Positions 4,270 to 52,771 of a stretch of DNA of 64,000 nt are shown in pieces. This DNA comes from Acidimicrobiaceae bacterium. Lineage in GTDB: Bacteria > Actinomycetota > Acidimicrobiia > Acidimicrobiales > RAAP-2. The notes below the pieces were generated by a model. The model was not told the DNA's origin, searched no databases, and saw only the letters and a list, made by a program, of their open reading frames with translations. The stretch is from contig PLWZ01000037.1 of the NCBI GenBank assembly GCA_003151235.1, positions 1 through 64,000 on the forward strand, in the 5' to 3' direction. A program made the translations under genes and the position numbers. Within the stretch, counting starts at the first letter, position 1, and each line of letters begins with the position of its first letter.

Positions 4270-4332
4270 GGAGGAAGTGGCGTCTCGCCACCGAACTTCG
4301 GACCGAAACGCCGGCGGTATCGTACTGGGGAA

Positions 4333-5163: not shown

Positions 5164-5231
5164 CCTGGTACAACGCCGAGGTCCCGGCGCGAACGGACTC
5201 GCGCAGACCGGGCGTGGAATCATGTGCAGCC

Positions 5232-6101: not shown

Positions 6102-6110
6102 GCCTGCGCT

Positions 6111-6575: not shown

Positions 6576-6642
6576 TTCTCGGAGCGTACGACCGTGATCA
6601 GGACGAAGGGGTGAATCTCGGGGTCATAGGTACGCTCGGAGG

Positions 6643-7641
6643 ATGGAACATCGTCACCTCGGCAACAGCGGCATGGTCGTCTCGGCGATCTCGTACGGGA
6701 ACTGGATCACCCACGGTGGCCAGGTCGAAGAAGATGCCGCGCTGGCCTGCGTGCGGGCCGCCCTCGACGCCGGCATCACCACCTTCGACACGGCCGACGT
6801 CTACGCGGGCGGGGCCGCCGAGGAGGTTCTCGGTCGGGCCCTGGTCGGCGTGCGGCGGGACTCCATAGAGATCTTCACCAAGGTCTTCTGGCCCACCGGA
6901 CCGAATCCCAATAACCGCGGCCTGTCCCGCAAGCACATCCTCGAGTCCTGCGACACGTCGCTCCGTCGGCTGAAGACCGACCACCTCGACCTGCTCCAGG
7001 CGCACCGCTACGACGTGGACACCCCGCTCGAGGAGACCCTGCGCGCGTTCGACGACCTGGTCCGCATGGGCAAGGTGCACTACATCGGGGTCTCCGAGTG
7101 GAGCGCCGCACAGATCGCCGATGCGGTGAAGATCGCCGCGGACATGGGCCTCGACCGCATCGTGTCCAACCAGCCCCAGTACTCGTTGCTGTGGCGGGTC
7201 ATCGAGCCGAAGGTCGTCCCCGAATGCGAGAAGGACGGCATCGGCCAGATCGTGTGGTCGCCGCTCGCCCAGGGCATCCTCACCGGGAAGTACCTCCCGG
7301 GGGCGCCGATCCCCGAGGGCAGCCGCGCCGCGTCGGACCAGGGTGCGATGTTCATCCGCCGTTTCCTCCGCGACGCGGTGCTCGAGCCGGTCCAGAAGTA
7401 CGTCGCGGTCTGCCGGGAGGCCGGCTACAGCCCGGCCGCGGTCGCGCTCGCATGGGTGCTCCGGAACCAAAACGTGTCGTCTGCGATCGTGGGCGCGACC
7501 AGGCCGGAGCAGGTGGTCGAGAACGTGACCGCCCTCGACGTCGAACTGAGCGACGACCTGGTGGCCGCCATCGAGGCCGCGCTGGCGCCGGCGGTGGTGA
7601 ACGACCCCGACCTGACGGTCAGCCCGCCCGGACGCGGCTAG
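6643..7641 (+). CDS. aldo/keto reductase
   Basis: 332-residue NADPH-dependent aldo/keto reductase, closest to the Kv-channel beta-subunit / YghZ-like group. The tetrad is visible: Asp and Tyr in TFDTADVYAGG, Lys in EIFTKVFWP and His in LLQAHRYD. The cofactor end AIVGATRPEQVVENV is also present. The start ATG is directly preceded by GGAGG with almost no spacing, so the start may be read from a leaderless or short-leader transcript. The following NADH dehydrogenase gene begins 22 bases on, so the two are probably one operon. Confidence 0.92.
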   Translation: MEHRHLGNSGMVVSAISYGNWITHGGQVEEDAALACVRAALDAGITTFDTADVYAGGAAEEVLGRALVGVRRDSIEIFTKVFWPTGPNPNNRGLSRKHILESCDTSLRRLKTDHLDLLQAHRYDVDTPLEETLRAFDDLVRMGKVHYIGVSEWSAAQIADAVKIAADMGLDRIVSNQPQYSLLWRVIEPKVVPECEKDGIGQIVWSPLAQGILTGKYLPGAPIPEGSRAASDQGAMFIRRFLRDAVLEPVQKYVAVCREAGYSPAAVALAWVLRNQNVSSAIVGATRPEQVVENVTALDVELSDDLVAAIEAALAPAVVNDPDLTVSPPGRG

Positions 7642-7663
7642 CGATGGGGACCGGGGCCGGATC

Positions 7664-8998
7664 GTGACAGTCGGCGCGCCCCACCGGGTCGTCGTGATCG
7701 GCGGCGGGTTCGGGGGGTTGTTCGCGCTTCGGGTGTTGCGACGGGCGCCGGTCGAGGTGACCGTCATCGACCGGACGAACCACCATCTCTTCCAACCGCT
7801 CCTCTACCAGGTCGCAACCGGGATCCTCTCGGCCGGAGAGATCGCCCCGCCGATCCGCGACGTGGTGCGCCACCAGCCGCGCACGACGGTGGTCCTCGGC
7901 GCGGTGACCGCGATCGACCTGACCGCGCGTACGGTCACCGCCCATCAGGGCGACTCGGCCCACACCCTCCCCTACGACAGCCTGATCGTCGCGGCGGGCT
8001 CGGAGACCTCCTACTTCGGCCACGACCACCTCAGCCGGTGGGCGCCCGGGATGAAGTCGATCGACGACGCGCTCGAGTTGCGGGGCCGGATCTTCGGTGC
8101 ATTCGAGATGGCCGAGGCCGAGTCGGACGAACGACGACGCGGCGAATGGCTGACCTTCGCCGTGGTGGGCGGTGGGCCGACCGGTGTCGAGATGGCCGGC
8201 CAGATCGTGGAGCTGTCGCAGCGTTCGTTGCAGCGCAACTTCCGCAACTTCGACCCGCGCTCGACCCGCGTCGTCCTCTTCGACGGTGGGACGAGCATCC
8301 TCCCGACGTTCGGTCCCCGGCTCGCCGCCAAGACCCGGCGGGATCTCGAGCGCCTGGGCATCGAGGTCCACCTCGACACTTTGGTCACCGACATCGACGA
8401 CCGGGGCGTCGATGTCAGGTTCGGGGACGGCTCGACCCGCCGGTTCGCCGCGCGTACCAAGATCTGGGCGGCCGGGGTCAAGGCGTCCGCGCTCGGAAGG
8501 ACGCTGGCCGAACAGTCGGGTGCAGACCTCGACCGGAACGGCCGGGTGCAGGTCCTCCCCGACTGCTCGCTCCCGGACCATCCCGAGGTGTTCGTGGTTG
8601 GCGACCTCATGGTGCTCGACGACCTGCCCGGTGTCGCCGAGGTGGCCATGCAGTCGGGCGCGCACGCCGCCCGGGTGATCGTCCGTCGCCAGGCCAAGGG
8701 TGGCGAGGGACCCGGGCAACCGCTGCGCTACCACGACCTCGGATCGATGGCCACGATCGCCCGCTTCAAGGGGGTGGCCAAGATCGGGCGGATCGAGATA
8801 GCCGGTTTCGTCGGCTGGGTCGCGTGGCTGGTGGTCCACCTGACGTTCCTGACCGGGTTCAAGAACCGGGTGTCGGCCCTCGGGCACTGGACGGTCAGCT
8901 TCCTTGGGAGGTCCCGGTCCGAACGGACCATCACCGAGCAGCAAATTGTCGCCCGCCTGGCCATCGAGGCCCAGGGGGACGCTGGGCGGACCCTCTAG
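7664..8998 (+). CDS. ndh: type II NADH dehydrogenase (NDH-2-like)
   Basis: 444-residue FAD protein that passes electrons from NADH to quinone at the inner face of the membrane without pumping protons. The FAD-binding GGGFGGL is at about residues 13-19 and HLFQPLLYQVATG follows; the NADH-binding GGGPTGVEMAG is in the middle, and a second FAD contact is VFVVGDL. The C-terminal FVGWVAWLVVHLTFLTGF is the expected membrane-associating helix. The start is GTG 7664. It is convergent with the acyl-CoA synthetase gene; the two stop codons overlap by a few bases. Confidence 0.92.
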   Translation: MTVGAPHRVVVIGGGFGGLFALRVLRRAPVEVTVIDRTNHHLFQPLLYQVATGILSAGEIAPPIRDVVRHQPRTTVVLGAVTAIDLTARTVTAHQGDSAHTLPYDSLIVAAGSETSYFGHDHLSRWAPGMKSIDDALELRGRIFGAFEMAEAESDERRRGEWLTFAVVGGGPTGVEMAGQIVELSQRSLQRNFRNFDPRSTRVVLFDGGTSILPTFGPRLAAKTRRDLERLGIEVHLDTLVTDIDDRGVDVRFGDGSTRRFAARTKIWAAGVKASALGRTLAEQSGADLDRNGRVQVLPDCSLPDHPEVFVVGDLMVLDDLPGVAEVAMQSGAHAARVIVRRQAKGGEGPGQPLRYHDLGSMATIARFKGVAKIGRIEIAGFVGWVAWLVVHLTFLTGFKNRVSALGHWTVSFLGRSRSERTITEQQIVARLAIEAQGDAGRTL

Positions 8999-10695
8999 CC
9001 CGCCGCGGTTGGGTCGGGGTAGAGGGACGTCCGAATCTCGCGCTTCAAGATCTTTCCGGTGGCGCTCCGCGGGAGCTGCTGGGGCGAGAAGGTGATCAGG
9101 GACGGGACCTTGAAGGGGGCCAGCCGCTTCCGGACGTATTCCTGCAACTCCTCGGCGCCGAGGGTGGCGCCGGGCTTCAACACGACCGCCGCCGCGACCT
9201 CTTCGCCGAGCCGCGGGTCGGGCACCCCGAACACCGCCGCTTCGTAGACGGCCGGGTGCTCGTAGATGGTCGCCTCCACCTCGGCGGAGTAGATGTTCTC
9301 CCCGCCCCGCAACACGATGTCTTTCGCCCGGTCTTCGACGTAGATGAAGCCGTCCGCGTCCAGGTAGCCGATGTCGCCGCTGCGGAGCCAACCCTTCACG
9401 ATGGTCTCCGCGGTCTCGGCGGGCCTGTTCCAATAGCCCCGGATGAGGTTGGGGCCCTTGAAGCAGATCTCGCCCCGTTGCCCCGTCGGGACGGAGTGGT
9501 CGTCGCCGTCGCGCACCTCGATCTGCATGATCGGGACCACCCGACCGGCGCTCGAGGGGTGCGAGACGTAGTCGTCGCCCGAGTTGCCGGGCCCGTAGGC
9601 ATTGGTCTCGGTCATCCCGTAACCGATGGCCGGACGTCCGCCACCGAACTCCTCGTCGACCCGGCGCACCAGCGTCGGCGGCGCCGGGGCGCCCCCGCCG
9701 GCGATCGATGCGAGCGACGAGGTGTCGTACGTGTGGAAGTTGGGCGACTCGATCAAGTCCCAGCTCTGTGTCGGCACGCCGACGAACGTCGTCACCCGTT
9801 CGCTCTCGATGAGCTGCAGGGCCTTCTCGGCGTCCCAGCGGTACATGATCACGAGCTTCATGCCGCTCGCGAATGACGAGAGCATCACCGGAATGCAGCC
9901 GGTCACGTGGAAGAGCGGCACGGCCAGGATGAGCGTCGGCGGGTATGCGGGCGCCGTCGGCTGGGCCGGCGGGCCGTCGGTGCGGGCGAGCTCGATGAAC
10001 TGGCGACACCCGAAGGCCATCAGGGCCTGGATGACCGCCCGGTGGGGCGAGACGGCGCCCTTCGGTACGCCGGTGGTGCCCGACGTATAGAGGATGGTCG
10101 CGTCGTCTTCGGGGTCGATGGCCACCTTGGGCAGGGGATTGCCCAGCTCGACAACGTCCTCGTAGCGCTCGACGACCCCGGAAACGCCGGCATCGTCTGC
10201 ACTGCGGACCGCGATCACCTTGACGCCGAGCCGTTTGCACGTCTCGGTCATGCGGGCGACCCGTTCGGGATCGGCCAACACAACGGAGGCACCGCTGTCC
10301 TCGATGGCGTAGGCAATCTCGTCCTCGGTCCACCAGGCGTTGAGCGAGACCGAGATGGCGCCGACCGACAGCGTCGCTGCGAACGAGATCACCCACTCGG
10401 GCAGGTTGCGCATCGCTATGGCGACCCGGTCGCCCTTCTTCACGCCGAAGTGCTCCACCAGGCTCGCGCCGAGTGCGTCGACGTGGGTCATCACGTCTCG
10501 GAAACTCCACCGCTCACCCTCGTAAACCAAAAAGGTCTGGTCACCCCGGCCTCGGGCCGTCGCAAAGACCGCCCGCAGGGTCGGCGGGGCGTTCTTGAAC
10601 ACCTTGTAGGTCACGTCGTCGATCGTCTTGTCGACGATCTCCATGGGCTGGCCCGGCGCGGTCACCCGGGCCGCCGCCTCGTCGAAGCTCAGCAT
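8995..10695 (-). CDS. AMP-dependent acyl-CoA synthetase/ligase
   Basis: 566-residue ANL-superfamily enzyme that activates a carboxylic acid as acyl-AMP and then acyl-CoA. Core motifs: ILYTSGTTGVPKG (P-loop), IGYGMTETNAYG, the hinge region RSGDIGYLDADG, and the catalytic Lys in SATGKILKREIR. The length is normal for fatty-acyl or aromatic-acyl CoA ligases; the substrate is not evident. The gene stands alone between ndh and the tnpB element, with a 226-base upstream region that is probably partly transposon-derived. Confidence 0.93.
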   Translation of the reverse strand: MLSFDEAAARVTAPGQPMEIVDKTIDDVTYKVFKNAPPTLRAVFATARGRGDQTFLVYEGERWSFRDVMTHVDALGASLVEHFGVKKGDRVAIAMRNLPEWVISFAATLSVGAISVSLNAWWTEDEIAYAIEDSGASVVLADPERVARMTETCKRLGVKVIAVRSADDAGVSGVVERYEDVVELGNPLPKVAIDPEDDATILYTSGTTGVPKGAVSPHRAVIQALMAFGCRQFIELARTDGPPAQPTAPAYPPTLILAVPLFHVTGCIPVMLSSFASGMKLVIMYRWDAEKALQLIESERVTTFVGVPTQSWDLIESPNFHTYDTSSLASIAGGGAPAPPTLVRRVDEEFGGGRPAIGYGMTETNAYGPGNSGDDYVSHPSSAGRVVPIMQIEVRDGDDHSVPTGQRGEICFKGPNLIRGYWNRPAETAETIVKGWLRSGDIGYLDADGFIYVEDRAKDIVLRGGENIYSAEVEATIYEHPAVYEAAVFGVPDPRLGEEVAAAVVLKPGATLGAEELQEYVRKRLAPFKVPSLITFSPQQLPRSATGKILKREIRTSLYPDPTAAG

Positions 10696-10921
10696 TGGAC
10701 GTCCACCATCAGGTCGTTCTCCCAGGCCTTGTTCGCTCCTGCACCCACGGCCGTACAGCCGACATTCAATCTAGAGCGGCTCGAGTCCCGGTCGACGGTA
10801 CCAAGCGAACCGGCTGACCTGCCCGAAACGCGGGCTGCCCGTCGCCTGAGCATCTTGGCTGGGTTCAACCGACGGTAGTGGCTCGGCTTGCTGGTCACAC
10901 CGCCTCGGTACCGTCCGCGTG

Positions 10922-12112
10922 ATGTCCCGCTGCCGAACCTACCGCTACCTCCTCCAGCCGACCAGCCGTCAACTGACTGGCCTGGAGCGCCTGTGCCTGG
11001 GTCAGTGCGAGCTGTACAACGCGGCCTTGGAAGAGCGCCGAGGGGCCTGGGCGTGGGAGCGCCGGTCGGTCTCCTACGTCGATCAGTGCCGGACCCTGAC
11101 CGAGACCCGCGAGGTTCGACCGGACCTCTTCGACTGCGGGCTCACGGTGTGTCGGGGAACCCTGATGCGCCTGGAATGGGCCTTCGCCGCCTTCTACCGG
11201 CGCTGCCGCAGCGGGGAGACACCCGGCTATCCCCGTTTCAAGGCCGCGTCGCGTTTTGACTCGGTGCAGTGGGAGGACACCAAGGGCTGGGGCCTGGAGA
11301 CCGAAGCCAAGCGATTGCGCCTGATGGGCATCGGATCGGTGAAGCTCCGCATGCACCGGCCACTGCGGGGGACGCCCAAGGCCATCACGGTGTCGCGTCA
11401 GGGCCACCGGTGGTGGGTGAGCATTCGCTGCGCGGAGGTCCCGGCCCAACCGTTGCCGGCGACCGGCCAGTCGGTCGGGATCGATCTCGGGGTCTGCGCC
11501 CTGGTGGCCACCAGTGATGGGGAGCTGGTTAGTGAGGGCCGGTTCGCCAAGAAGGCCAAGGACCGATTGGCCGGTGTCCAGCGAGCGTTGGCCACCAAGC
11601 ATCGGGGCTCGATGCACCGCCGTCGGGCCTGCGAGGCGGTGGGGCGAGCCCATCGCAAGGTGACCAACAAGCGCAAGGACCTGGCCCACCAGCTCTCCCG
11701 AAGGCTGGTGAACGAGCACGACCTGATCGTGCTCGAGGCCCTCAAGGTGCCCCAGATGTCCCGTCGTCCGAAACCGAGACCCAATGCGAAAGGAGGCTTC
11801 GATCGAAATGGTGCCCGGGCCAAGGCCGGGCTCAACCGTTCCATCGCCGATGCGGGGTGGGGCATGCTGCGCTCGATGCTCGTCTACAAAGCGGAAGATG
11901 CTGGTCGCGAGCTGATTGCAGTGGACCCCCGCCATACCTCCACCCGTTGCGCCGCTTGTGGGCACACCGAGTCGGAGAACCGGGTCAGCCAGGCCGTCTT
12001 TCAATGTCGGGGTTGTGGTCATCAGGACCACGCCGATGTCAACGCGGCCAGGAACATTCTTCGGGCCGGTAGGGCCCAACGGGCCTCGGCCCGTGCAGGC
12101 TCACGAAACTGA
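10922..12112 (+). CDS. tnpB: TnpB, RNA-guided nuclease of an IS200/IS605-type element
   Basis: 396-residue TnpB, the compact RuvC nuclease ancestral to Cas12. All three catalytic acids are present: Asp188 (VGIDLGV), Glu272 (IVLEAL) and Asp372 (DHADVNAARN). The zinc ribbon Cys343/Cys346/Cys362/Cys365 is intact, as is the conserved LNRSIADAGWGMLRSML helix. No tnpA lies in the window, so this is a tnpB-only (IS1341-type) element. I use ATG 10922; a GTG one codon earlier is also possible. There is no good ribosome-binding site. The stop codon sits inside a perfect hairpin that probably belongs to the omega-RNA. The methyltransferase gene starts only 30 bases after it. Confidence 0.93.
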   Translation: MSRCRTYRYLLQPTSRQLTGLERLCLGQCELYNAALEERRGAWAWERRSVSYVDQCRTLTETREVRPDLFDCGLTVCRGTLMRLEWAFAAFYRRCRSGETPGYPRFKAASRFDSVQWEDTKGWGLETEAKRLRLMGIGSVKLRMHRPLRGTPKAITVSRQGHRWWVSIRCAEVPAQPLPATGQSVGIDLGVCALVATSDGELVSEGRFAKKAKDRLAGVQRALATKHRGSMHRRRACEAVGRAHRKVTNKRKDLAHQLSRRLVNEHDLIVLEALKVPQMSRRPKPRPNAKGGFDRNGARAKAGLNRSIADAGWGMLRSMLVYKAEDAGRELIAVDPRHTSTRCAACGHTESENRVSQAVFQCRGCGHQDHADVNAARNILRAGRAQRASARAGSRN

Positions 12113-41037: not shown

Positions 41038-41915
41038 AGACCAAGTACAGGATCCCTCATGTCAAGGGCGTCGAGGTGCCGCGAACCCATGTCATGCGGC
41101 TCACTTTCGACGATGGAGTCACCAGGGAGCTCGAGTTCTTAGTCGGTTCGAACCAGGGAACTGTCTTCGCGGCCCTTGATGATCCGGTGTTTTTCGCGCA
41201 AGTTAAGGTGGACCCGGAGAGCCGCACAGTGATATGGCCAAACGGTCTGGACCTCGACCCCGCTGTGCTGCACGGCGACTGCGAACCCGCCGGGGTGTCC
41301 CACTTTCGGGACGTGACTCCTGGAACCAGCCAGGGAGCCGCCGGGTCGTTGCATCCGCCGTCTTCGTCGGATATTTCGTCGGAAATTTTCGGCTGGTGGG
41401 GCTGGGAGGGATCGAACCTCCGACCGAGGGATTATGAGTCCCCTGCTCTGACCACTGAGCTACAGCCCCCAACTGGTGCCTTACCTTCTGGCCCGAAACA
41501 TCGGCTCGTCGTTCTCCCGACACTTCGGCAGGAATCTGTCCTACGGGTCCATCTTGGTGCCGCCCAGCATCTCGCGGGTCGAGTCGGCGTGGCCGGCATG
41601 ATGGGCGGTCTCCTCGATGAGATGGAGGATCACCCACCTGAGGTCGATCGGCTCGCGCAGGTCGAGCAGGACGTGGACGGGCTCACCGGTCCCCTCCCTG
41701 CCGAGACAGGGCACGTCCAGACTCGGTGCCGCCCGCACCACGTCCTCGGTCCGGCGGGCCCGCTCCCGGTACACGCCAACCACCTCGTCGATCGAGCGTT
41801 CAGGACCGACGACGAACTCCTCCCCTCGCTTCGGGAACGGCGCACCGCCGTAGCGGCCGTCGATCCAGCGCCACTCGACATGTGTGAGGTGGTTGATCAC
41901 GCCGATGATCGGTAG
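41034..41915 (+). CDS. DUF2442 protein, reading through into a tRNA antisense
   Basis: From ATG 41034 the first ~85 residues are a normal DUF2442 domain (VKGVEVPRTHVMRLTFDDGVTREL, TVIWPNGLDLDPAVLHGD). The family usually stops near codon 85-95. Here the frame continues through the antisense of the CAT tRNA gene and into the antisense of the DinB gene up to 41915, giving 293 codons whose later part is clearly not protein-like. The natural stop has been lost or moved by an indel near 41290, so the true product is uncertain. Treat as a degraded partner of the DUF4160 gene. Confidence 0.5.
   Translation: MKTKYRIPHVKGVEVPRTHVMRLTFDDGVTRELEFLVGSNQGTVFAALDDPVFFAQVKVDPESRTVIWPNGLDLDPAVLHGDCEPAGVSHFRDVTPGTSQGAAGSLHPPSSSDISSEIFGWWGWEGSNLRPRDYESPALTTELQPPTGALPSGPKHRLVVLPTLRQESVLRVHLGAAQHLAGRVGVAGMMGGLLDEMEDHPPEVDRLAQVEQDVDGLTGPLPAETGHVQTRCRPHHVLGPAGPLPVHANHLVDRAFRTDDELLPSLRERRTAVAAVDPAPLDMCEVVDHADDR
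41394..41469 (-). tRNA. tRNA with CAT anticodon (Met or Ile2)
   Basis: Complete cloverleaf on the minus strand: acceptor GGGGCTG / CAGCCCC, D-arm with GCTC...GAGC, anticodon loop CTCATAA (anticodon CAT), T-arm GGAGG TTCGATC CCTCC, discriminator A and an encoded CCA at 41396-41394. CAT is shared by elongator Met and lysidine-modified Ile tRNAs; the sequence around the loop (GGGGACTCATAATCCCT) does not settle which. It is not the initiator, since it lacks the three-G/three-C anticodon stem. Confidence 0.92.
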
Positions 41916-42050
41916 CAATCTCGCGTCGGGAGTCCACCGAACCTGTTCGTCGCTTAGGCCCTCCGAGGTCGCGACGACCGCCTCGCGCTTGAACTGCAGA
42001 TACCGGAGCAGCAGTTCGCGCTCGTCGGATGTGGGGACGGGGGCGCTCAC
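41541..42050 (-). CDS. DinB-family (DUF664) protein
   Basis: 169-residue four-helix DinB-like protein. The metal His residues are visible in INHLTHVEWRWIDGRYGG and in LIEETAHHAGHADSTREML near the C-terminus. In Actinobacteria such proteins include mycothiol- or bacillithiol-dependent S-transferases; the DUF664 group is the closest match. Its length is normal. It is convergent with the degraded DUF2442 frame, whose open reading overlaps it on the other strand. Confidence 0.9.
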   Translation of the reverse strand: MSAPVPTSDERELLLRYLQFKREAVVATSEGLSDEQVRWTPDARLLPIIGVINHLTHVEWRWIDGRYGGAPFPKRGEEFVVGPERSIDEVVGVYRERARRTEDVVRAAPSLDVPCLGREGTGEPVHVLLDLREPIDLRWVILHLIEETAHHAGHADSTREMLGGTKMDP

Positions 42051-42609
42051 GTGTGGCCGTGAATCGTGCGATTGACCGGACTGGTCAGGCAGAGATGGAC
42101 GTCAGCGGGCCGCGTCGATCTCTTTCTTGTCGAGACCGCACAGCTTGACCGTCGTTGCACGCGGTGCCCGCGTGCTTCGCCTGGTCTTGGCCTTGCATAG
42201 GGCGCTCTCCAATCGACCGATCAATCAGGTCTGAGCACCATATTCCGTCCGTGCCGCGCCGGGCCGTCGAAAGTGAAACTCCGGTGGAGAGACTCGAACC
42301 CTCGATTAGCGGATGACCCCAACCGCGGAATCGCCACACCACTGAATGAGGTGAGGTCATGCGGTGTTCGGAGCGCTTGCCACTGCATGTGAGCAGGTCG
42401 CCGGCCAATACTCCCACCGACATCCGGCCTTGCAGGCCGTCCGTGCCGCGATCGAGCTACGGATCCCGGGGCGAGAATGGAAACGCCGGCTCGCTGAATT
42501 CAACTCGGAAGCGAACTCTCGTGACGCCAAGGCTGTGCTCAGTTCTACGGTCGAGAGACGCAGGCGTCGGTCACCGACACCCGCAGAGCAGGGACTATGA
42601 GGAGGAAAG
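42051..42609. other. gene-poor stretch holding a broken tRNA-like copy
   Basis: No supported gene in 559 bases. It contains a broken copy of a tRNA 3' half (42279-42345). A 78-codon open frame (42364-42600) has no start signal and no recognisable family, and the remaining short frames look like chance. The region lies upstream of the tRNA-Asn gene and looks like the worn edge of a past integration or deletion. Confidence 0.5.
42279..42345 (-). pseudogene. broken tRNA copy similar to tRNA-Asn 3' half
   Basis: The minus strand has the T-arm and acceptor end of a tRNA (GAGGGTTCGAGTCTCTCC followed by ACCGGAG), 25 bases nearly identical to the same part of the tRNA-Asn gene 331 bases away (two mismatches), plus the shared AGCGG at the other end. 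The anticodon arm is damaged (an oversized loop) and no matching 5' acceptor strand exists. It cannot fold as a working tRNA. Confidence 0.65.
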
Positions 42610-42681
42610 CTCCGGGGGAGAGACTCGAACTCTCAACCTAGCGGTTAACAGCCGCTTGCTCTGCCGTTGAGCTACCCCGGA
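42610..42681 (-). tRNA. tRNA-Asn (GTT)
   Basis: Complete cloverleaf on the minus strand: acceptor TCCGGGG / CCCCGGA, D-arm GCTC...GAGC, anticodon stem GCGGC / ACCGC-type with loop CTGTTAA (anticodon GTT), T-arm GAGAG TTCGAGT CTCTC, discriminator G. CCA is not encoded. It is 92 bases upstream of the first glycosyltransferase gene, on the other strand. Confidence 0.93.
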
Positions 42682-42772: not shown

Positions 42773-45529
42773 GTGGTGAAACCCGGCCCGCTTCGAATTG
42801 GTGCGTCACCGCCCACGAGCGCAATCCCGTTCTACTGCATCAACCTGGCGCACTCCGAGGAACGCCGTGAGCGGATGACGAGGCGGTTCGATGAGCTCGG
42901 ACTCCTCGGACAAGTGCAGTTCATCCGGGCCATCGAGAGCTCGTCTTCGTCGGTCGACCAGCACATGGCGCGAGCGGCCATCGACTGGGCACCGGATCGG
43001 CGGCGCTCAGAAATTGCGTGCCTGTTGAGCCATCTGCTTGCTCTGGACACCTTTCTCAAGGAGACCTCCCCGGCGACACCGTCGGCAATCATCTTCGAGG
43101 ACGACGTGCTGCTTCACCGCGAATGGCACGCGCAGCTCCACGCGCTCCTTGAGAATCTGCCCGAAGGCGCCCCCCTCTGCTCTCTCGGGTACGAAGTGGT
43201 CTCTTGGGATGGGTTCGACTGGGCCGGCAGGGACCCCGATCGGAAAAATCTGATGCTCATGAACCCCAAGCCGTTGTGGGGTGCTCATGCCTATTGGACC
43301 TCTCGCGAACACGCCCAGGAGGCACTCGAGCACTACGAAGAGATCTTCAACGACCCGCGCATCCTCTCGGAGTTCATCGTGAAGTGGCCGGGGGCATACG
43401 TCTCGTTTCCTCCGCTCGTCATCGAAGACGGCATGCCCTCGACGATCCGGACCGAGGGCGAGATGGGCGTGCACCGGATGATTCACCACGGCTGGGGGGT
43501 CGAGAACTACGGCTCGGGTAACCCGGACGATCACATGCTGAAGCGGCGAACGGACACCGATCAAACCGTCTGCCTGTGCATGATCGTCCGCAACGAGGCC
43601 CACGTCATCGGCCGCCTGGCCAAGTCGCTTGAGGGGCTCATCGACTGCTGGGTCATCTGCGACACGGGATCGACCGACGGGACGCCGGCGGCGGTCGAAT
43701 CAGCGTTTGGCGACCTGCCGGGAGAACTGTTCCACGACGAGTGGCGTGACTACGGGACGAACCGCACCCTGATGCTCGAACGGGCTCAGGGGAAGGCCGA
43801 CTACCTGTTGATCCTGGACGCCGACCAAACGGTTCGCGTCACGTGCCAGCTTGGCTCGCTCGATGCCGACGCGTACTCCCTGCTCGTCGACGAACCAACG
43901 GCACACTGGGTTCCGAGACTGGTTCGCTCGGGTCTCCCGTGGCGCTATGTCGGGGCGGCGCACGAGTACCTCACCTGCGACCGCCCGTATCGGACCGAAT
44001 TCCTCGACGGCCTCGTCGTGCAGCACCACGCGGACGGCGGCAATCGACCCGACAAGGCGGCACGCGAGCTCGAGCTGCTCGAGCGTGACCTCGCCCAAGA
44101 GCCCGACAACCCCCGGACGATCTTCTATCTGGCCCAGACGCATCGGGAGATCGGCAACGACGCCAAGGCCATCGAGCTCTATGCCCGGCGTGTCGAGCTG
44201 GGGGGATGGCCCGAAGAGGTCTTCTACTCGAAGTACTGGCACGCCGAGCTGATCAGCCGCCGCGACTGGGATCTCGGGGTCTCGCTGCTTTTGGATGCCT
44301 GGCAGTACCGGCCCAAGCGGGCCGAGCCGCTGTACGCGCTCGTCCAGGGCTTTCGGGCCCGGAACCAGTATCGGTTGGCCGAGATGTTCGGCGACCTCGG
44401 GATGCGGCTCGAGTTTCCCGACGACACGCTCTTCGTGCACCGCGAGCCGTACGACTGGGGCCTGGTGTTCGAGTGGTCGATCGCCGCCTACTGGACCCGG
44501 AATCTCAAGGGGGCGTTGGAGGGGAACGAATACCTGCTTGCTGCTCCGTCGGTGCCGCCGGAGGTCAGACGCTTCGCCGCGACGAACCGGGAACGCTGCC
44601 AGGTGGCGCTCGACCTGTACGAGAGCGATGACGGTCAGGAAGTCTCTCTCGAGGCGCTCTGGGTCCCGACGCTCGGTTCGCTGGTCGAGGGCACGAGGAT
44701 CGGCCAGATCGAACTGTCACTCGGAAGGTCGTGGGTTCTGAGTCAGCCCTCGATCATGAGCGAAGGCGACGGCTTCCGGCTTCTCGCCCGGGCCGTCAGC
44801 TCGACCGCCACCAAGGGCGCAAGCGACGACGAGGAGCCGTTCTTTGTCGACATCGAGCTCGATGCAGATCTCTCGGTCCGCTCCGCCACCGGGCTGGGCA
44901 ACGAACCGACCCCTGACGGTGCAGTGTCGGAAGGCTCCGATTTCGGCCGGCTGGTCGGCTTTGGCGGCGATCGATGGCTCGTGTTCGACGTCATCGATGC
45001 CGCACCGCCTCGATCAGGACGAACCGCCATCGCGCGGGTGGCCGCCGAGCAGTTCGTCGATCGTCAACTGCTCGAGAGCCCGGGCTCCGAGGGCGAGGAC
45101 CGAGGTTGGATCCCCGTGGTGCGCGATGACGACCTGCACTTCGTCACCAGTCTCTCTCCGACGATGGCGGTGCGGGGCCGACCCGGGTCAGGCCCGCTCA
45201 CCGTGGTGTCGACGAACAAGCCCTCCCGCAGCCTCGCCGGGGAACGAGGCAGCTCCCAGGGTGTGGCGGTCGACGGTGGGGTGCTCGCGGTCACCCGGGT
45301 GTCCTCGGTCGGGGGCACCTCCGAGCACCGGTTCGTGCTTCTGGGCAAGGACTTCGAGGTCCTGGCCACCAGTCCACGCTTCTGCTTCGAAAGCCCAGTG
45401 GGCGAGGTCTGCGTCGGCCTCGCCGTCCAGGGACCCGACCTGGTCATGAGCTTCGATCGCGGGGGTGCCGGTGCTCACGTGGCCCGTCTCCCCTACGAGG
45501 GCGTTCGGGCCCTTCTGTGGCCGGAATGA
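42773..45529 (+). CDS. modular glycosyltransferase: GT25 + GT2 + TPR + C-terminal domain
   Basis: 918 residues. First is a GT25 domain (about 20-225; FYCINLAHSEERRERMTRRF, EIACLLSHLLALDTF, the acidic motif FEDDV and WGAHAYWTS). A GT2 domain follows (about 262-420; LCMIVRNEAHVIGRLAKS, CDTGSTDGTP and the donor-site LILDADQ, DxD near residue 347). Then a TPR-like region begins (about 445; RTIFYLAQTHREIGNDAKAIELY), and finally about 280 residues of beta-rich C-terminal domain. GT25 enzymes add galactose or glucose to collagen and LPS; both active centres look intact here. The start is GTG 42773. It is the first of two tandem paralogs in the glycan-protein locus. Confidence 0.88.
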   Translation: MVKPGPLRIGASPPTSAIPFYCINLAHSEERRERMTRRFDELGLLGQVQFIRAIESSSSSVDQHMARAAIDWAPDRRRSEIACLLSHLLALDTFLKETSPATPSAIIFEDDVLLHREWHAQLHALLENLPEGAPLCSLGYEVVSWDGFDWAGRDPDRKNLMLMNPKPLWGAHAYWTSREHAQEALEHYEEIFNDPRILSEFIVKWPGAYVSFPPLVIEDGMPSTIRTEGEMGVHRMIHHGWGVENYGSGNPDDHMLKRRTDTDQTVCLCMIVRNEAHVIGRLAKSLEGLIDCWVICDTGSTDGTPAAVESAFGDLPGELFHDEWRDYGTNRTLMLERAQGKADYLLILDADQTVRVTCQLGSLDADAYSLLVDEPTAHWVPRLVRSGLPWRYVGAAHEYLTCDRPYRTEFLDGLVVQHHADGGNRPDKAARELELLERDLAQEPDNPRTIFYLAQTHREIGNDAKAIELYARRVELGGWPEEVFYSKYWHAELISRRDWDLGVSLLLDAWQYRPKRAEPLYALVQGFRARNQYRLAEMFGDLGMRLEFPDDTLFVHREPYDWGLVFEWSIAAYWTRNLKGALEGNEYLLAAPSVPPEVRRFAATNRERCQVALDLYESDDGQEVSLEALWVPTLGSLVEGTRIGQIELSLGRSWVLSQPSIMSEGDGFRLLARAVSSTATKGASDDEEPFFVDIELDADLSVRSATGLGNEPTPDGAVSEGSDFGRLVGFGGDRWLVFDVIDAAPPRSGRTAIARVAAEQFVDRQLLESPGSEGEDRGWIPVVRDDDLHFVTSLSPTMAVRGRPGSGPLTVVSTNKPSRSLAGERGSSQGVAVDGGVLAVTRVSSVGGTSEHRFVLLGKDFEVLATSPRFCFESPVGEVCVGLAVQGPDLVMSFDRGGAGAHVARLPYEGVRALLWPE

Positions 45530-45613
45530 CCGCGGGCGTTGCGACGCGTTGTCTCGCGCGCGAGGCCAGCATTCCAGGATCGGCCGAACGACCGACCCGA
45601 TGAGAGAGTCGGG

Positions 45614-48361
45614 ATGGCGCCAGTAAGCTCGCCCGCTGTGGACGGGCCGGCGTCGCGGGCAAGCGACCGAACGGCCCCCGAAGCGCAGATCCCGATCTAC
45701 TGCATCAACTTGGCGTCATCCCGAGACCGACGTCTCCGGATGACTCGGCGCTTCGAAGAGGTCGGGCTCCAATCGGTCCGGTTCATCCGGGCCATCGACC
45801 GTCGTTCGAAGGTCGTCGAGGATGACCTCGCGCAGACGAAGGCCGTGTCGCGTGATGACAAGGCACGGTCCGAGGTGGCGTGCTGGTTGAGCCACATTCG
45901 TGCGCTGCGTACGTTCTTGAGAGAGACACCGTCCACAACCGAATCGGCGATCATCTTCGAGGACGATGTGATGCTGCATCGTGAGTGGCACGAGCGGCTC
46001 GGAGCGGTCCTCGGCAACCTCCCCGAAGGTGCCCCGGTGTGTGCTCTCGGGTACAACGACGAGGACTGGGAGCGACCGCCAGAAACCTGGGAAGGCTTCG
46101 CGTGGGCGGGCGTAGATCCGGACCGTCGGGTCCTCATCCACTCCCTCCGTCGGCAATGGGGGGCGCACGCCTACTGGATAAGCCGATCGCACGCTCGGGC
46201 CGTACTGGACATCCTGAAGACGGACGGCGAGCGATTTGGCCGCTACCCCGAGAATTTCCTGAAGGTCGCCGGTTCCTTCGCGGCGTTCCCGGCGTTGGCG
46301 ATCCAGGACGGCAGCCCGTCGACCATTACTGGCGAACCCGCGAGGATTCTCTCGCACCGAATGATCAACTCGTCCTGGGGAGTCGAGAACTACCTCGCCG
46401 GGGACGGTGGGCACATGTTGGCCAAGCGCTCGGAGAGAGCGCCGTCGATCTGCCTGTGCGCGCTGGTTTGGAATGACGGTGAGCTGATCGATCGCATGGC
46501 CTCTTCGGTCGAGGGTCTGGTCGACAACTGGGTGATCTGCGACACCGGGTCCACCGACGGCACGCCGGAACGGGTGGCCAAGGCGTTCGCCGGCATCCCC
46601 GGACGGCTTTACGAGGACGCATGGCAGGACGACGGGACCAACCGCACGATGCTTCTCGAGCGCGCTCGTGGGGCGGCCGACTACCTACTAATCGTCGACG
46701 CCAGCCACTCGATCTCCCTTCGACAGCAGCTTGACCAGCTGGGAGCCGACGCCTACCTGCCGATCGCGGTGGAATCGCGGAGCGGTTGGACGCCGATGCT
46801 CGTGCGTGCCGATCTGCCGTGGCAAGCCATCGGAGCAATCAATGCCGATCTGGCCTGCGACCGTCCATATCGGATCAACGAGCTGCCCCAGATGGTGGTC
46901 CGCCGCGATGAGAGCGGCGACCATCGGCGCGCCGAGCTCGACCGGAAGCTCGAACTGGCCACGACCCTCCTGGTCGACCAGCCCGCCGATCGACCGGTGT
47001 CCTTCTCGACTGCAGAGCTCACCCGTGAGCTGGGCCACGGCAAGCGGGCAATCGACCTCTACGTTCGGCGGCTCGAACTCGGCGGTGCCCCTGCCGAGCT
47101 CTGGGAGCCCATGTATCGGCACGCCACGCTCGTAAGCGAGCGGGACTGGGACCGGGGCGTCAATCTTCTTCTCGAGACCTGGGAATTCCTTCCGTCGCGC
47201 CCCGAGCCGCTGTGGTCCCTCGCGCACGGGTATCGACTGCGCGAGGAGTTCGCTCTCGCCAAGGTCTTCGCAGCGAAGGGGTTGGCGGTCCCGTTCCCCG
47301 AGACGATGCCACATCGTTTTCGCGACATCTACGACTGGGGCCTCAGGTGGGAGTGGTCGCTGGCCGCATACGAGACGGGGGATCCGAAGGGCGCGGCAAG
47401 GATGTCCGGGAGTCTCCTGAACGATCCGACCATCCCCGACGATGTTCTCGCCGAGATGAAGAGCCACTATTGGCGATCCCGCGACTTTGCGAGGGCCAGG
47501 GGTTGGCAGCCCGGAGACACGCCCGATGCGTCGAGCCTGTTTGAAGTCCTTCCCGATGCCGAGATCGTCGAGTTCCGCCTCGATGTCGATCGAGGCATGG
47601 TGCAGACAGATCCGTCCGTGACCGGCGACGGCGAGCACCTCCGGGCATTGATGCGGGTGTCGGAGACCGCGAATTCCTGGGCCATTACCTACTTTGAGGC
47701 CGAACTAGCGTCCGACCTGAGCGTCGTGCGTGCTCGCCCGATCGCAGACAACCGGGGCGCACGTGCAGCCCCCATGGCCGCATTCCATCGCTGTTATCTG
47801 GTGTGGTCGGGATCCCAGTTCCTTGTGGTGGCACACGGGTCAGGATCACCCGGCGGTTCGGCCCCGGTGGTCGTGATGCCCTTGTCCGACGGCGGACTCG
47901 GACCGTCGCAGGTCCTCGTGGCCGACGGCACGGGGAGCCCGACTCGGTGGGCGCCATTTGCGGTCGACGGCGAGCTGCGGTTCCTTTCGAGCTTCGACCC
48001 GGTCACGGTCCTGTCCGTGGACGATCAAACGGGCGACATCACCTCGACGCGGACGGCCAGCAGGTTTCATCGGTTGGGTGAGGAGAGATCCGCGTCCCCG
48101 GGGGCTCAGGTCGCCGGCGGCACCTTGTTTGTCACACGGCGGGTCCTTCCGGGCGAGGTGGTGGAGCACCGCTTGGTGCTGATCGACGACGATTGCGAGG
48201 TCGCCGGCTCGAGCGCCAGCTTCTTCTTCTTCAATCCGACCAGGGAGCTTTGCTCGGGGCTCGCCACCCTCGGCGACGACGTGGTGTTCAGCGTGGGGAC
48301 CGAACTCCAGGGTTCGTTCTTGGTCAGGCTGCCCTACTCGGCGGTGGCCGCACTGCTCTAG
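45614..48361 (+). CDS. modular glycosyltransferase paralog: GT25 + damaged GT2 + TPR + C-terminal domain
   Basis: 915 residues from ATG 45614, sharing the whole layout of the preceding gene: GT25 (IYCINLASSRDRRLRMTRRF, FEDDVML, WGAHAYWIS), GT2 from about residue 278 (LCALVWNDGELIDRMASS, CDTGSTDGTP), a helical repeat region and a beta-rich C-terminus ending SFLVRLPYSAVAALL. In the GT2 domain the DxD place reads IVDASHS, so donor binding is probably lost, while GT25 keeps EDD. The pair probably arose by tandem duplication and has since split roles. GTG 45638 is an alternative start. Confidence 0.86.
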   Translation: MAPVSSPAVDGPASRASDRTAPEAQIPIYCINLASSRDRRLRMTRRFEEVGLQSVRFIRAIDRRSKVVEDDLAQTKAVSRDDKARSEVACWLSHIRALRTFLRETPSTTESAIIFEDDVMLHREWHERLGAVLGNLPEGAPVCALGYNDEDWERPPETWEGFAWAGVDPDRRVLIHSLRRQWGAHAYWISRSHARAVLDILKTDGERFGRYPENFLKVAGSFAAFPALAIQDGSPSTITGEPARILSHRMINSSWGVENYLAGDGGHMLAKRSERAPSICLCALVWNDGELIDRMASSVEGLVDNWVICDTGSTDGTPERVAKAFAGIPGRLYEDAWQDDGTNRTMLLERARGAADYLLIVDASHSISLRQQLDQLGADAYLPIAVESRSGWTPMLVRADLPWQAIGAINADLACDRPYRINELPQMVVRRDESGDHRRAELDRKLELATTLLVDQPADRPVSFSTAELTRELGHGKRAIDLYVRRLELGGAPAELWEPMYRHATLVSERDWDRGVNLLLETWEFLPSRPEPLWSLAHGYRLREEFALAKVFAAKGLAVPFPETMPHRFRDIYDWGLRWEWSLAAYETGDPKGAARMSGSLLNDPTIPDDVLAEMKSHYWRSRDFARARGWQPGDTPDASSLFEVLPDAEIVEFRLDVDRGMVQTDPSVTGDGEHLRALMRVSETANSWAITYFEAELASDLSVVRARPIADNRGARAAPMAAFHRCYLVWSGSQFLVVAHGSGSPGGSAPVVVMPLSDGGLGPSQVLVADGTGSPTRWAPFAVDGELRFLSSFDPVTVLSVDDQTGDITSTRTASRFHRLGEERSASPGAQVAGGTLFVTRRVLPGEVVEHRLVLIDDDCEVAGSSASFFFFNPTRELCSGLATLGDDVVFSVGTELQGSFLVRLPYSAVAALL

Positions 48362-48370
48362 GTGCGGCGG

Positions 48371-48386
48371 GGCTCGCGTGCGAGCC
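48371..48386. terminator. short hairpin between convergent genes
   Basis: GGCTCG-CGTG-CGAGCC, a 6-base-pair GC-rich stem, right after the stop of the second glycosyltransferase gene and just before the 3' end of the collagen-like gene on the other strand. No T-run follows, so termination strength is uncertain. Confidence 0.4.
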
Positions 48387-48391
48387 GGAAC

Positions 48392-48922
<531 letters not shown>

Positions 48923-49049
48923 TCACGGTCCCCCACCCCGGCGGGAGGGCGTGGCCCGGGTGGTCGAGGCGCGGCCGACCCGGCTAGAAAGGCAAGCTTC
49001 ATCGAGAGTGTTCCGGTGCCAGGACCGGCCCGCGCCATGGAAGGGTGAA

Positions 49050-50084
49050 ATGGCCGAAAGCAGCGCGAACAGCGGCGGGGGTCTGGCCTTGTTCGGGCTG
49101 ACAACCGACGGCTCGCTCCAGCACGCCCGCCAACTTCCCGGCCTGGGCTGGTCCGAGTGGTGGACGGTAGGGCCCCAGGTCCGTTCCACACCTGCGGCCG
49201 CCCAGAACGCCGAAGGGCGGATGGAGGTGTTCGCGGTCGGACCGGACGGCTCGCTCGGTCACCTCTTCGAGACCCAACCGGGCCACCTGTCGGACTGGGA
49301 GGACCTCGGGCACCCCGCCCGAGGCAACCCATTTGTCTGCATGGACCAGGGCGGAAACCTCCAGGTCTTCGCGACAGACCTGAGCGGCCAGCTGGGCCGG
49401 ATCCGGCAAGTCGAACCCGGCGGCCCGGGCTGGTCGGACTGGGAAAGCTACGGCTACCCGGTGCGGAGCCGGCCGACGGCCTGCCTGAACGCCGATGGGC
49501 GACTCGAGGTGTTCGCGGCCGGTGTCGACGGGCGGCTTGGGCACGTATGGGAATGGGATCCGGGAGGGAGGGTTGGCTGGTCCGACTGGGGGGAGTTCTC
49601 TCACCTCCTTCGCGGCAACCCGGTGGTGCACCAGAACGAGGACGGGCGGCTCGAGGTGTTCGGCTGCGCGGGCAACGGTCGACTCGGGCACGTCTGGCAA
49701 CTCGAGGCGGGCGGGTCGGCCGGCTGGTCGAACTGGTCGGACTTTGGGCACCTCATCCGATCCGCTCCATCGGTCATTCGCAATGCCGACGGCCGATTGG
49801 AGATCTTCGCCTGCGGCGCGTCCGGCGCCCTCGGCCACGTCTGGCAGCAGGACGAGGACAGTGATTTCGGATGGTCGGACTGGGGGGACTTCGAGGTGGC
49901 GATCCGAGGAAACCCGAGTGCCTGCCACAACACCCACGGCCGGCTCGAAGTGTTCGCGCTCGGTCTCGATGGACGCATCGGCCACGTCTGGCAGCTCGAG
50001 CCGGGTTCGGAGAACGGATGGTCGGAGTGGGCCGATCTGGGGGCGTCGGGGTCGGGAGGCCTGACGGTGTGCCGAACATCGTGA
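49050..50084 (+). CDS. seven-bladed PLL-type beta-propeller lectin
   Basis: 344 residues from ATG 49050 with ribosome-binding site GGAAGGG. Almost the whole protein consists of seven repeats of about 46-49 residues with the pattern (N)-x-D-G-R-L-E-V-F-x-x-G-x-D-G-x-L-G-H-V-W-Q followed by G-W-S-x-W. This is the repeat of the PLL lectins (Photorhabdus) and the fungal PVL lectin, which bind fucose, GlcNAc or methylated sugars between blades. There is no signal peptide. The next gene begins with the same seven repeats fused to an oxidoreductase. Confidence 0.85.
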   Translation: MAESSANSGGGLALFGLTTDGSLQHARQLPGLGWSEWWTVGPQVRSTPAAAQNAEGRMEVFAVGPDGSLGHLFETQPGHLSDWEDLGHPARGNPFVCMDQGGNLQVFATDLSGQLGRIRQVEPGGPGWSDWESYGYPVRSRPTACLNADGRLEVFAAGVDGRLGHVWEWDPGGRVGWSDWGEFSHLLRGNPVVHQNEDGRLEVFGCAGNGRLGHVWQLEAGGSAGWSNWSDFGHLIRSAPSVIRNADGRLEIFACGASGALGHVWQQDEDSDFGWSDWGDFEVAIRGNPSACHNTHGRLEVFALGLDGRIGHVWQLEPGSENGWSEWADLGASGSGGLTVCRTS

Positions 50085-50314
50085 CCGCGGCAGCGTGGGT
50101 GAGGCGGTCCCCGACCTGCAGCGGCAGCCATCGCGCTCAGCGAGGGTCCTGATCAACGAACCGAGCCGTGCAGCTGGTCTCGTTGACCTCGGGTCGCACC
50201 TCGCGGGGTCGGGTTCGGCGGCGAGGTAGAAATGGGATGCCGCTGCGCCGGTCGGATCCTTCGGCTGCCGAACGGACACCAACAAGTGGCTGAGTCGACG
50301 GACGGAAGAGCGCG

Positions 50315-52771
50315 ATGCCGATAGGCAGTCTGAGCACCGGGCGAGGCCTGGCTGTGTTCGCGGTCGGGCCCGACGGTTCTCTCGCGAATCGGTGCCTCAT
50401 TCCCGACAGCGGTTGGTCCGAGTGGTCGGTCGTGTGCCCCCAGGTCCGTGGAGCGCCGGCGGCCTTCCAGAACGCGGACGGCCGCGTCGAGGTGTTCGCC
50501 GCCGGTGCTGACGGGCGCCTCGGCCACGCATGGGAGATCGACGCTGGTCGTTGGTCGGACTGGGAGGGTTCGGGTCCCCCGGTGCTCGGTGACCCCTGCA
50601 TGTTCATCGACCAATCCGGCCGCCTCCAGGTGTTCGCCGCCGGTGCCGACGGCCAGCTCGGACGCATGCGCCAACTCGAGCCCGGAGGGCTCACGGGATG
50701 GTCGGAATGGGAGACCTCGGGGCATCTGATCCGGGGCCGGCCGACCGCCTTCCAGAACTTCGACGGCCGCCTGGAGGTCTTCGCCGCGGGAATCGACGGC
50801 CGGCTTGGTCACATCTGGGAGTGGGAGCCAGGCGGGCCGCTCGGGTGGGCCGAGTGGGATGACTTTCACTACATCGTCCGCGGGAACCCGGTGGCGTTCC
50901 AGAACGACGACGGCCGCCTGGAGGTCTTCGCCTGCAACGCTCAAGGCCGTCTCGGGCACGTGTGGCAGCTGGACCCGGGCGGTCACACGGGTTGGTCCGA
51001 GTGGGGAGACTTCGGGTACCTCATCCGTGGCGATCCGGCGGTGGGTCAGAACCCCGACGGTCGTCTCGAGGTCTTCGGTTGTGGCAGCGGGGGCCGTCTC
51101 GGGCACGTGTGGAGGGATCACGGCGGGCGTGCCGCAGGTTGGTCCGAGTGGGGAGACTTCGGGTACACGATCGCGGAGACACCCACCGTCTTCCACAACG
51201 CCGACGGTCGGCTCGACGTGTTCGTGGTCCGCTTAGATGGACGGCTCGGGCACGTCTGGCAGCAGGGCCCCGGTGCCGCGCATCCGTGGTCCGATTGGGC
51301 GGACCTCGGGGCCGGCTGGCGCCTGCCGGCCGTCTGCCGAGCCAGCGTCTCTGGCCGGGCCGGCAGCGAGCAGCTGGCCGCGGTGGTACAGCGCGCCCGG
51401 GCCGCCTGGCCGGTCGGCACCGCCACGACCCTCACCGCCGACGTCTGCGTTGTCGGCGGTGGTCCGGCAGGCATCACGCTGAGCGACGCGTTGACCCGGG
51501 CGGGAGCGAGCGTCCTACTCCTCGAAAGCGGCGAGTGGGACTACAACCCGGCTGCACAGGAGCTGAACGACGCGGACGCCGATGGCCCGATCATCAAGGA
51601 CTACCGGAACTATCTCCGGGCCGGTCGCCAGCGTCAGATCCAAGGCGCTGCGCTGCGATGGGGCCGAGGACTCTGCATGCCGTTGCGCACACTCGACTTC
51701 GAGGACCGGGCGTGGGTACCCCATAGCGGGTGGCCGCTCGTCCAGGCGGACCTGGCTCCCTTCGAGAAGCTCGCTGCGGCCACCTTCGGCTTCGATGAGT
51801 TCGGTCCCCCGGCGACGGAGAGCGAGCTGGTCCACCTCTCGTATCACTATCCGTCGAACCCCCTGCTCTTCCGCGCGCTCTTCCTCCAGCTGCTGACGAG
51901 ACCCAATTTCGCGACCGAACTTGGCGCAACGGTGGTCGAACTGAAGGTGGGCGGCGATCGGGTGACCGGAGTTCGCGTGGCTCGAGCCGGAGGTGACGAA
52001 CTCCACGTCGAGGCAGACACGGTCGTGTTGGCGGGCGGCGCCGTCGAGAACACCCGCCTCCTGCTGATGCACGAGCGCAGCGTGCCGTCGGGCGGCAACG
52101 CCGGTCGATTCTTCATGGAGCATCCCCACGTGCTCGCCGGATCCGTGGAGCTGGCCGACCCGACGCCGTTGCGGGCGTGCCTCGCCGACGGAGCCGTGCG
52201 AGAGGTGTTGGCCCTACCCGAGGAAGTCCAGCGGACCGAACACCTGCTGAACGTCAGCGTGCAGCTGAGTCCGCACGGTTCGAGCGGTGCAACCACGCCG
52301 TTGACATGCCAGCTCTATGCGCGGGCCGAACAGGCGCCGAACCCGGAGAGCAGGGTCGTCCTCGGCGATCAACTCGATCGGCTCGGTTGTCCCCGCCCTC
52401 GCCTCGAGTGGCGCCTGAGCGAGCAGGACTGGATCAGCGTCGTGCGAACGTCCGAGTTGGTCGCCGCGGCCCTCGAGGAGCGTTACGGGGCCCGCACCGA
52501 GCTCCTCGTACGAACCGACGAGCCGTGGCCGTGGCCGCCGGCCGGGCCGGCCGACTCGTCGAATGCGACGTGGGGCAACCACCATCTCGGGACCACCCGG
52601 ATGGCGGTGCGCCCGGAAGACGGAGTGGTGGATCCTGACTGCCGAGTCCACGGCACCGAGAATCTCTTTGTGGCCGGAAGCTCGGTCTTCCCGACCGGCG
52701 GCTGCGCCAATCCGACCTTCACCATCGTCACCCTGGCTCACCGGTTGGCCAGCCACCTGGCCTCCCCCTAG
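50315..52771 (+). CDS. PLL-type propeller lectin fused to GMC-family FAD oxidoreductase
   Basis: 818 residues. Residues about 10-345 repeat the seven-bladed lectin of the previous gene (DGRLEVFAAG...GHVWQ...GWSEWG). From about 375 a GMC oxidoreductase follows: VCVVGGGPAGITLSDALTRAG (FAD), LRWGRGLCMPL, VLAGGAVENTRLLLM and the C-terminal GNHHLGTTRM...NLFVAGSSVFPTGG and NPTFTIVTLAHRL, which bear the His/Asn catalytic pair. Relatives oxidise sugars or other alcohols. The fusion implies that oxidation is aimed at a bound glycan. No signal peptide is seen. It is convergent with rpoD. Confidence 0.85.
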   Translation: MPIGSLSTGRGLAVFAVGPDGSLANRCLIPDSGWSEWSVVCPQVRGAPAAFQNADGRVEVFAAGADGRLGHAWEIDAGRWSDWEGSGPPVLGDPCMFIDQSGRLQVFAAGADGQLGRMRQLEPGGLTGWSEWETSGHLIRGRPTAFQNFDGRLEVFAAGIDGRLGHIWEWEPGGPLGWAEWDDFHYIVRGNPVAFQNDDGRLEVFACNAQGRLGHVWQLDPGGHTGWSEWGDFGYLIRGDPAVGQNPDGRLEVFGCGSGGRLGHVWRDHGGRAAGWSEWGDFGYTIAETPTVFHNADGRLDVFVVRLDGRLGHVWQQGPGAAHPWSDWADLGAGWRLPAVCRASVSGRAGSEQLAAVVQRARAAWPVGTATTLTADVCVVGGGPAGITLSDALTRAGASVLLLESGEWDYNPAAQELNDADADGPIIKDYRNYLRAGRQRQIQGAALRWGRGLCMPLRTLDFEDRAWVPHSGWPLVQADLAPFEKLAAATFGFDEFGPPATESELVHLSYHYPSNPLLFRALFLQLLTRPNFATELGATVVELKVGGDRVTGVRVARAGGDELHVEADTVVLAGGAVENTRLLLMHERSVPSGGNAGRFFMEHPHVLAGSVELADPTPLRACLADGAVREVLALPEEVQRTEHLLNVSVQLSPHGSSGATTPLTCQLYARAEQAPNPESRVVLGDQLDRLGCPRPRLEWRLSEQDWISVVRTSELVAAALEERYGARTELLVRTDEPWPWPPAGPADSSNATWGNHHLGTTRMAVRPEDGVVDPDCRVHGTENLFVAGSSVFPTGGCANPTFTIVTLAHRLASHLASP

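Follow-up and report, generated by a model that had tools for sequence, protein, structure and literature searches.

In C. difficile, the glycosyltransferase SgtA is a 358-aa protein with a GT-A-fold domain (aa 1–260) followed by TPR (262–358), and its gene lies directly upstream of bclA3 (PMC7157674). In vitro, in the presence of Mn2+, SgtA adds beta-O-GlcNAc to Thr residues of BclA3 collagen peptides, and SgtA/BclA3 is the single enzyme–collagen pair that we found with proof of this kind (PMC7157674). A 2022 review regards bacterial collagens as unglycosylated in most cases (PMC8968730).

Here we analyzed a window (the whole stretch of DNA, 64,000 nucleotides) that contains five neighboring ORFs in a block of about 10 kb (Table 1). 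The first-pass annotation had presented them as one new system, in which two glycosyltransferases would glycosylate a collagen-like protein and two lectins would read or oxidise the glycan. All five ORFs were recovered with the domains attributed to them, including the two tandem enzymes of about 915 residues, and the tRNA-Asn said to flank the block was located. We have called the two enzymes GT-A and GT-B, and we use the term core for their GT2-TPR part. From comparison across genomes, we read the block as a new and elaborate version of the SgtA/BclA type of collagen glycosylation, accompanied by two lectin genes that are not linked to it.

Table 1. Features of the block, in window coordinates
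Feature	Position	Strand	Description
tRNA-Asn	42609–42681		
GT-A	42773–45529	+	918 aa; GT25, GT2, TPR and predicted five-bladed propeller
GT-B	45539–48361	+	940 aa; domain order as in GT-A
Collagen-like protein	48392–48859	-	155 aa; twin-arginine-type N-terminus; 13 Gly-X-Thr triplets
Uninterrupted Gly-X-Y run	48488–48613	-	14 triplets, 13 of them Gly-X-Thr; proposed glycosylation region
PLL-type lectin	49050–50084	+	seven-bladed propeller; seven W-S-x-W motifs; no evident signal peptide
Lectin-GMC fusion	50315–52771	+	PLL-type propeller joined to a GMC FAD oxidoreductase

GT-A and GT-B are separated by 9 bp on the same strand and probably form one operon. The collagen-like gene is on the opposite strand, tail-to-tail with GT-B at 30 bp, and therefore stands outside the GT operon. 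Regarding the flank, the 3' end of the tRNA-Asn (42610–42630) recurs some 330 bp away, at 42279–42299, with a single mismatch, possibly as a tRNA remnant. We looked for an island boundary at this tRNA; since the only other copy of its 3' end is that one, outside the block, the far side of the block lacks an att-like repeat. The minus strand at 41541–42050 encodes a DinB-superfamily protein (Pfam mycothiol-S-transferase, 6.3e-28), which fits an actinobacterial genome.

The 13 Gly-X-Thr triplets that had been reported for the collagen-like protein were confirmed within one uninterrupted run, the only Gly-X-Y run of at least 12 triplets in the six frames of the window; 100 codon-block shuffles gave no run of at least four triplets. 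One could argue that this ORF is no gene but the wrong-strand reading of a GC-rich repeat, given that long plus-strand ORFs overlap it, that the GC content at its third codon positions resembles that of a gene only weakly, and that the Pfam Collagen model (PF01391) gave no match at E-values up to 0.1 or up to 1, probably because low-Pro Gly-X-Thr sequence scores poorly in that model. We find this very hard to believe. Gly and Thr are kept through a mixture of synonymous codons (GGC6/GGG5/GGA3/GGT2 for Gly and ACC9/ACG4/ACT1 for Thr), which indicates selection on the protein; the N-terminus resembles that of the collagens of L019, a locus of the same genus, and of L258, L265 and L297; and dozens of relatives have such an ORF in the same place, next to a core gene. 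As to the claim that the protein is Tat-exported, the twin-arginine motif (12 residues) is present at the N-terminus, and export is predicted from it. The genome also encodes a second collagen-like protein, in contig C17 (L256, G000:C17:38000-49000; 4973–6013, minus strand), with Thr in 19% of Y positions; the surrounding DNA, out to about 5 kb, contains no core gene, and this protein serves as a natural internal control.

Both glycosyltransferases match the GT25 family (PF01755) in Pfam, with E-values of 4.6e-14 for GT-A and 3.2e-13 for GT-B (53.2 and 50.5 bits, for a cut-off of 24), and both carry an FEDDV motif. The nearest solved structures to the GT25 domain were mimivirus R655, COLGALT1 and one bacterial GT25, with E-values from 1.9e-5 to 3e-3. 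A closer kinship with the collagen galactosyltransferases was considered and rejected: their E-values are similar to that of the bacterial GT25, so we claim no nearer relationship. In GT-A, the GT25 match covers residues 19–131 (Pfam) and is followed by GT2 (~265–420), TPR (~425–615) and the propeller (~632–918). The GT25 part of the full-length GT-A model was poor, and the fold search with that model gave no GT25 row. The TPR appears both as helical repeats in the model, at 425–617, and as matches in profile searches. Besides, the profile of the central domain matches GmaR, SunS and ThuS, all of them peptide or protein glycosyltransferases, and the fold search aligned SunS to residues 259–526 of the GT-A model with a Z of 22.0 over 263 residues. 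These matches place the core among the GT2-TPR peptide-glycosyltransferases, with SunS and GmaR as its kin. No named NCBIfam family scored above its cut-off for GT-A or GT-B.

The annotation had assigned GT25, GT2 and TPR to both enzymes. This holds in full for GT-A, while the GT2 domain of GT-B is degenerate and, in contrast to that of GT-A (8.5e-8), gives no Pfam GT2 match. GT-A retains an intact DAD, which is a DXD-type metal motif, and an intact HE motif. GT-B has DAS in place of DAD, and thus no metal motif, NA in place of HE, and RDESGD in place of HHADGG. Among 103 core domains, DAD is kept in 100 and HE likewise in 100, with GT-B an outlier for both. Judging from these lost catalytic motifs, the GT2 domain of GT-B appears to be a pseudo-enzyme. 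Its GT25 domain retains the EDD motif.

What had been described as a beta-rich C-terminus is indeed present in both proteins and can be defined more exactly. An AF2 model of this domain (pLDDT 89, pTM 0.90) found GH130 mannoside phosphorylases as its top structure matches (Foldseek, VIA), with a Z of 24.5 over 271 residues for RaMP1, and the GT108 enzyme MPT-2 gave a Z of 18.4. Weak BMT and GH130 profile matches were also obtained in members of the GT family. The domain is thus modelled as a GH130/GT108-type five-bladed propeller. At the positions of the GxEDxR and EKNW motifs, GT-A reads GSDFGR and EDRGW, and GT-B reads AFHRCY and SPTRW. The motif Asp and KNW are kept in twelve of twelve relatives, including the genome's own copies in contigs C87 and C79, and from its position the lost Asp would be the GH130 catalytic acid. 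Having lost the conserved motifs, both window propellers probably have only a binding or scaffold role; the same propeller in the relatives is, by its sequence, probably active.

To place the module in context, we defined as Thr-rich a collagen-like ORF with at least 8 triplets and Thr in at least 25% of Y positions. In a scan of named genomes, 34 of 80 loci had such an ORF within 3 kb of the core, and the density dropped with distance, from 3.34 per 10 kb at up to 500 bp from the core gene to 0.04–0.17 past 3 kb. Among loci with at least 7 kb on each side, 17 of 40 had one within 2 kb, when 3.7 were expected from distant positions in the same loci (p = 3e-8); the loci sampled were the best-scoring matches, and so non-random, with Streptomyces over-represented, and therefore p-values overstate the count of independent cases. 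The hosts include Streptomyces, Bacillus, Paenibacillus, Desulfosporosinus, Acidovorax, Cupriavidus, Paraburkholderia, Mesorhizobium, Chlamydiae, Acidobacteria, Hydrogenedentota, Polyangiaceae and Mucilaginibacter, and tandem, divergent and convergent gene orders were all found. Within the class of the window, the Gly-X-Thr pattern occurs in 11 of 15 core-bearing genomes and in 55 of the 380 others (p = 1e-6). On a tree of 103 core domains, the collagen-adjacent label needs 20 changes, so the pairing is scattered over the family and is not the inheritance of one clade. The reverse search detected a core gene at one of six Gly-X-Thr collagen loci of the class (L280, and not L272, L276, L278, L281 or L284). 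The link is therefore one-way, as the Gly-X-Thr collagens checked mostly lack a core gene nearby.

Viral contigs gave the pair within 3 kb in 20 of 80 loci. On phage contigs (L167–L246), a compact GT2-TPR gene is often present, and the nearby Gly-X-Thr gene is often the size of a tail fibre. Phage collagen-like proteins are possibly glycosylated.

Loci from the class gave closer views of the arrangement. In L019, a Tat-type collagen lies 39 bp from a GT2-TPR-propeller protein, and L260 has a tight collagen/core block with a 9-bp gap. The order is propeller, Tat-collagen, GT2-TPR in L261 and propeller, GT2-TPR, Tat-collagen in L262. A search of relatives with the propeller only gave one new genome, whose locus (L297) has propeller, Tat-collagen, GT2-TPR and Tat-collagen genes in a row, as had been predicted. 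Twin-arginine motifs are found in the collagens of L019, L258, L261, L262, L265 and L297, as in the window. A GT25 domain fused C-terminally to GT2-TPR was detected in L258, L265 (with GT10), L268, L094 and L107 (with Anp1), and such fusions adjoin Tat-type collagens at 9 bp in L265 and 40 bp in L258. Other partners fused to the core are Anp1 plus a methyltransferase (L087), HtrL_YibB (L019) and a GT1-type domain (L054). Given this variety, extender enzymes appear to have joined the core on several separate occasions, the N-terminal GT25 of the window being one of them; the fused domains would act by extending the glycan.

The genome itself carries further copies. One in C87 (L009; 5070–8282, minus strand) is a full-length GT25-GT2-TPR-propeller paralogue with intact motifs, and the 11-kb stretch around it, which ends close to a contig end, has no collagen-like gene. 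A second glycan locus, in C79 (L010, G000:C79:12000-29000; 3969–12027), contains two GT2-TPR-propeller genes, a sulfotransferase and a UDP-glucose/GDP-mannose dehydrogenase, with the remnant of a broken GT25-GT2-TPR gene on the opposite strand at 5959–6576.

Hence, one could propose that the window enzymes make another glycan, either an exopolysaccharide or that of a different glycoprotein, and that the collagen-like gene is there by chance or through shared regulation. Its convergent orientation would fit, as would the C87 and C79 copies, which lack a collagen and of which the latter sits beside the sulfotransferase and UDP-sugar dehydrogenase genes. Moreover, a Thr-rich collagen is missing from the surroundings of about half of the core genes, these two copies among them, so the family may have other substrates. 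We nevertheless hold this explanation to be unlikely for the window, because the association between core and collagen is strong and distance-dependent over many phyla, operons with Tat-collagens are repeated in the class, and a pattern search of the 3.57-Mb genome found its sole Gly-X-Thr locus here. Comparison across genomes, both of cores beside collagens and of core-GT25 fusions, together with the SgtA/BclA3 precedent, gives good support to the proposal that the GTs would glycosylate the collagen-like protein.

Regarding the lectins, the identity of the 49050 gene as a seven-bladed PLL-type lectin was borne out by a PLL3 match (2.3e-90), DUF346 repeats and the W-S-x-W motifs counted in the translation. 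So was the fusion of a propeller to a GMC oxidoreductase in the second gene (DUF346 repeats and GMC_oxred_C, 4.7e-25, in Pfam), with a propeller 58% identical to that of the first. A functional unit of all five genes, with the lectin binding the collagen glycan and the fusion protein oxidising it, could be defended from their physical adjacency, from the fact that PLL-type lectins bind sugars, and from the GMC domain, whose nearest solved structures are glucose and fructose dehydrogenases and pyranose oxidase. However, lectin homologues were absent from every other bacterial GT2-TPR neighborhood scanned, the three other class genomes in which a lectin homologue occurs lack GT2-TPR genes, and the lectin-GMC fusion was found nowhere else in 296 class genomes. 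Export is predicted for the collagen, but an evident signal peptide is absent from both lectin ORFs. No relative was found with GTs and lectins together, and a role of the lectins in reading or oxidising the glycan is unsupported. With zero co-occurrence we discarded the five-gene unit, which we judge quite improbable; by this comparison, the lectin and lectin-GMC genes appear to lie outside the conserved module and unlinked to it. In L024 (9187–11864), a GT2-TPR gene overlaps a GMC oxidoreductase gene tail-to-tail, the order of the two being the same; the GMC gene is distant (24% identity) and the case is single among more than 100 core loci, and we do not take it as evidence.

From the domains, motifs and cross-genome association that we observed, we infer the substrate, the sugars, the order of their addition and the location. 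In the cytoplasm, the TPR arm of GT-A would hold the unfolded Gly-X-Thr chain, as in SgtA and SunS, while its GT2 domain would start the glycan by attaching a sugar, by analogy GlcNAc, to the Thr in every triplet. More sugars would then come from the GT25 domains of both enzymes, GT-B acting as a partner that supplies the second GT25, with its own GT2 a presumed pseudo-enzyme. The propellers may go back to a mannosyl-transfer or phosphorylase domain of the GH130/GT108 type. The glycosylated protein would leave by the Tat route, which would suit a folded, already glycosylated triple helix, and give a small triple-helical glycoprotein of the surface or matrix. Taken as a whole, with order, sugars and location included, we consider it likely that the window encodes a module dedicated to glycosylating a collagen-like surface protein.

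The window thus leads to a broader, directly testable claim of widespread collagen O-glycosylation in bacteria. Our sequence comparisons suggest that bacterial collagens are probably glycosylated far more often than believed. If association means function, dedicated O-glycosylation of Thr-rich bacterial collagens would be widespread, its initiating enzyme would be recognisable by sequence, the dominance of Thr at Y in many bacterial collagens would be explained, and the fused multi-GT proteins would be tools for producing glycosylated recombinant collagens. We also put forward, tentatively and with slightly more doubt than belief, that the GT2-TPR family is a machine for collagen O-glycosylation, pan-bacterial and also carried by phages. 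Its core would initiate, and lineages would have repeatedly fused extenders to it (GT25, GT10, Anp1, GH130-type propeller, methyltransferase), so that single polypeptides would work as assembly lines, completing the glycan on the collagen chain in the cytoplasm prior to its export by Tat or Sec. If true, the pairing of GT25 with collagen would have arisen in bacteria too, besides animals and giant viruses.

Finally, we compared the locus with known systems. The lectin genes share the seven-bladed DUF346/PLL propeller with the PLL lectins of Photorhabdus, but one of the window copies is fused to a GMC oxidoreductase and neither recurs with the GT module. The C-terminal domains resemble the five-bladed propeller of GH130 mannoside phosphorylases and of the GT108 mannosyltransferases of Leishmania, and differ from them by the absence of GxEDxR and EKNW. 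The GT25 domain is common to COLGALT1, mimivirus R655 and bacterial GT25 enzymes. Animal GT25 enzymes act on hydroxylysine in the ER, and unlike in them, the GT25 of the window is fused to GT2-TPR. SunS and ThuS, peptide S-glycosyltransferases, have the same GT2-TPR core, with the same fold and peptide-acceptor logic, but neither a collagen partner nor a GT25; SunS modifies a Cys of a bacteriocin. The likeness to SgtA–BclA3 lies in a GT2 enzyme with C-terminal TPR encoded beside a Thr-rich collagen-like protein, as the window gene with Thr in Y adjoins GT-B. The compact form of the family (GT2 plus TPR, 350–400 aa) matches the layout of SgtA, kinship being judged here by domain layout. The statement that the genes had not been described together was therefore too strong for the core pair, because C. 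difficile already offers a known case of a GT2-TPR gene next to a collagen. The window differs from that system in several respects: its GTs have both a fused GT25 and a propeller, which SgtA lacks; BclA3 is a protein of the spore exosporium, whereas the window collagen is a short Tat-type protein in an Acidimicrobiia-like genome; and a second, partly dead GT paralogue is a feature of the window and not of SgtA–BclA3.
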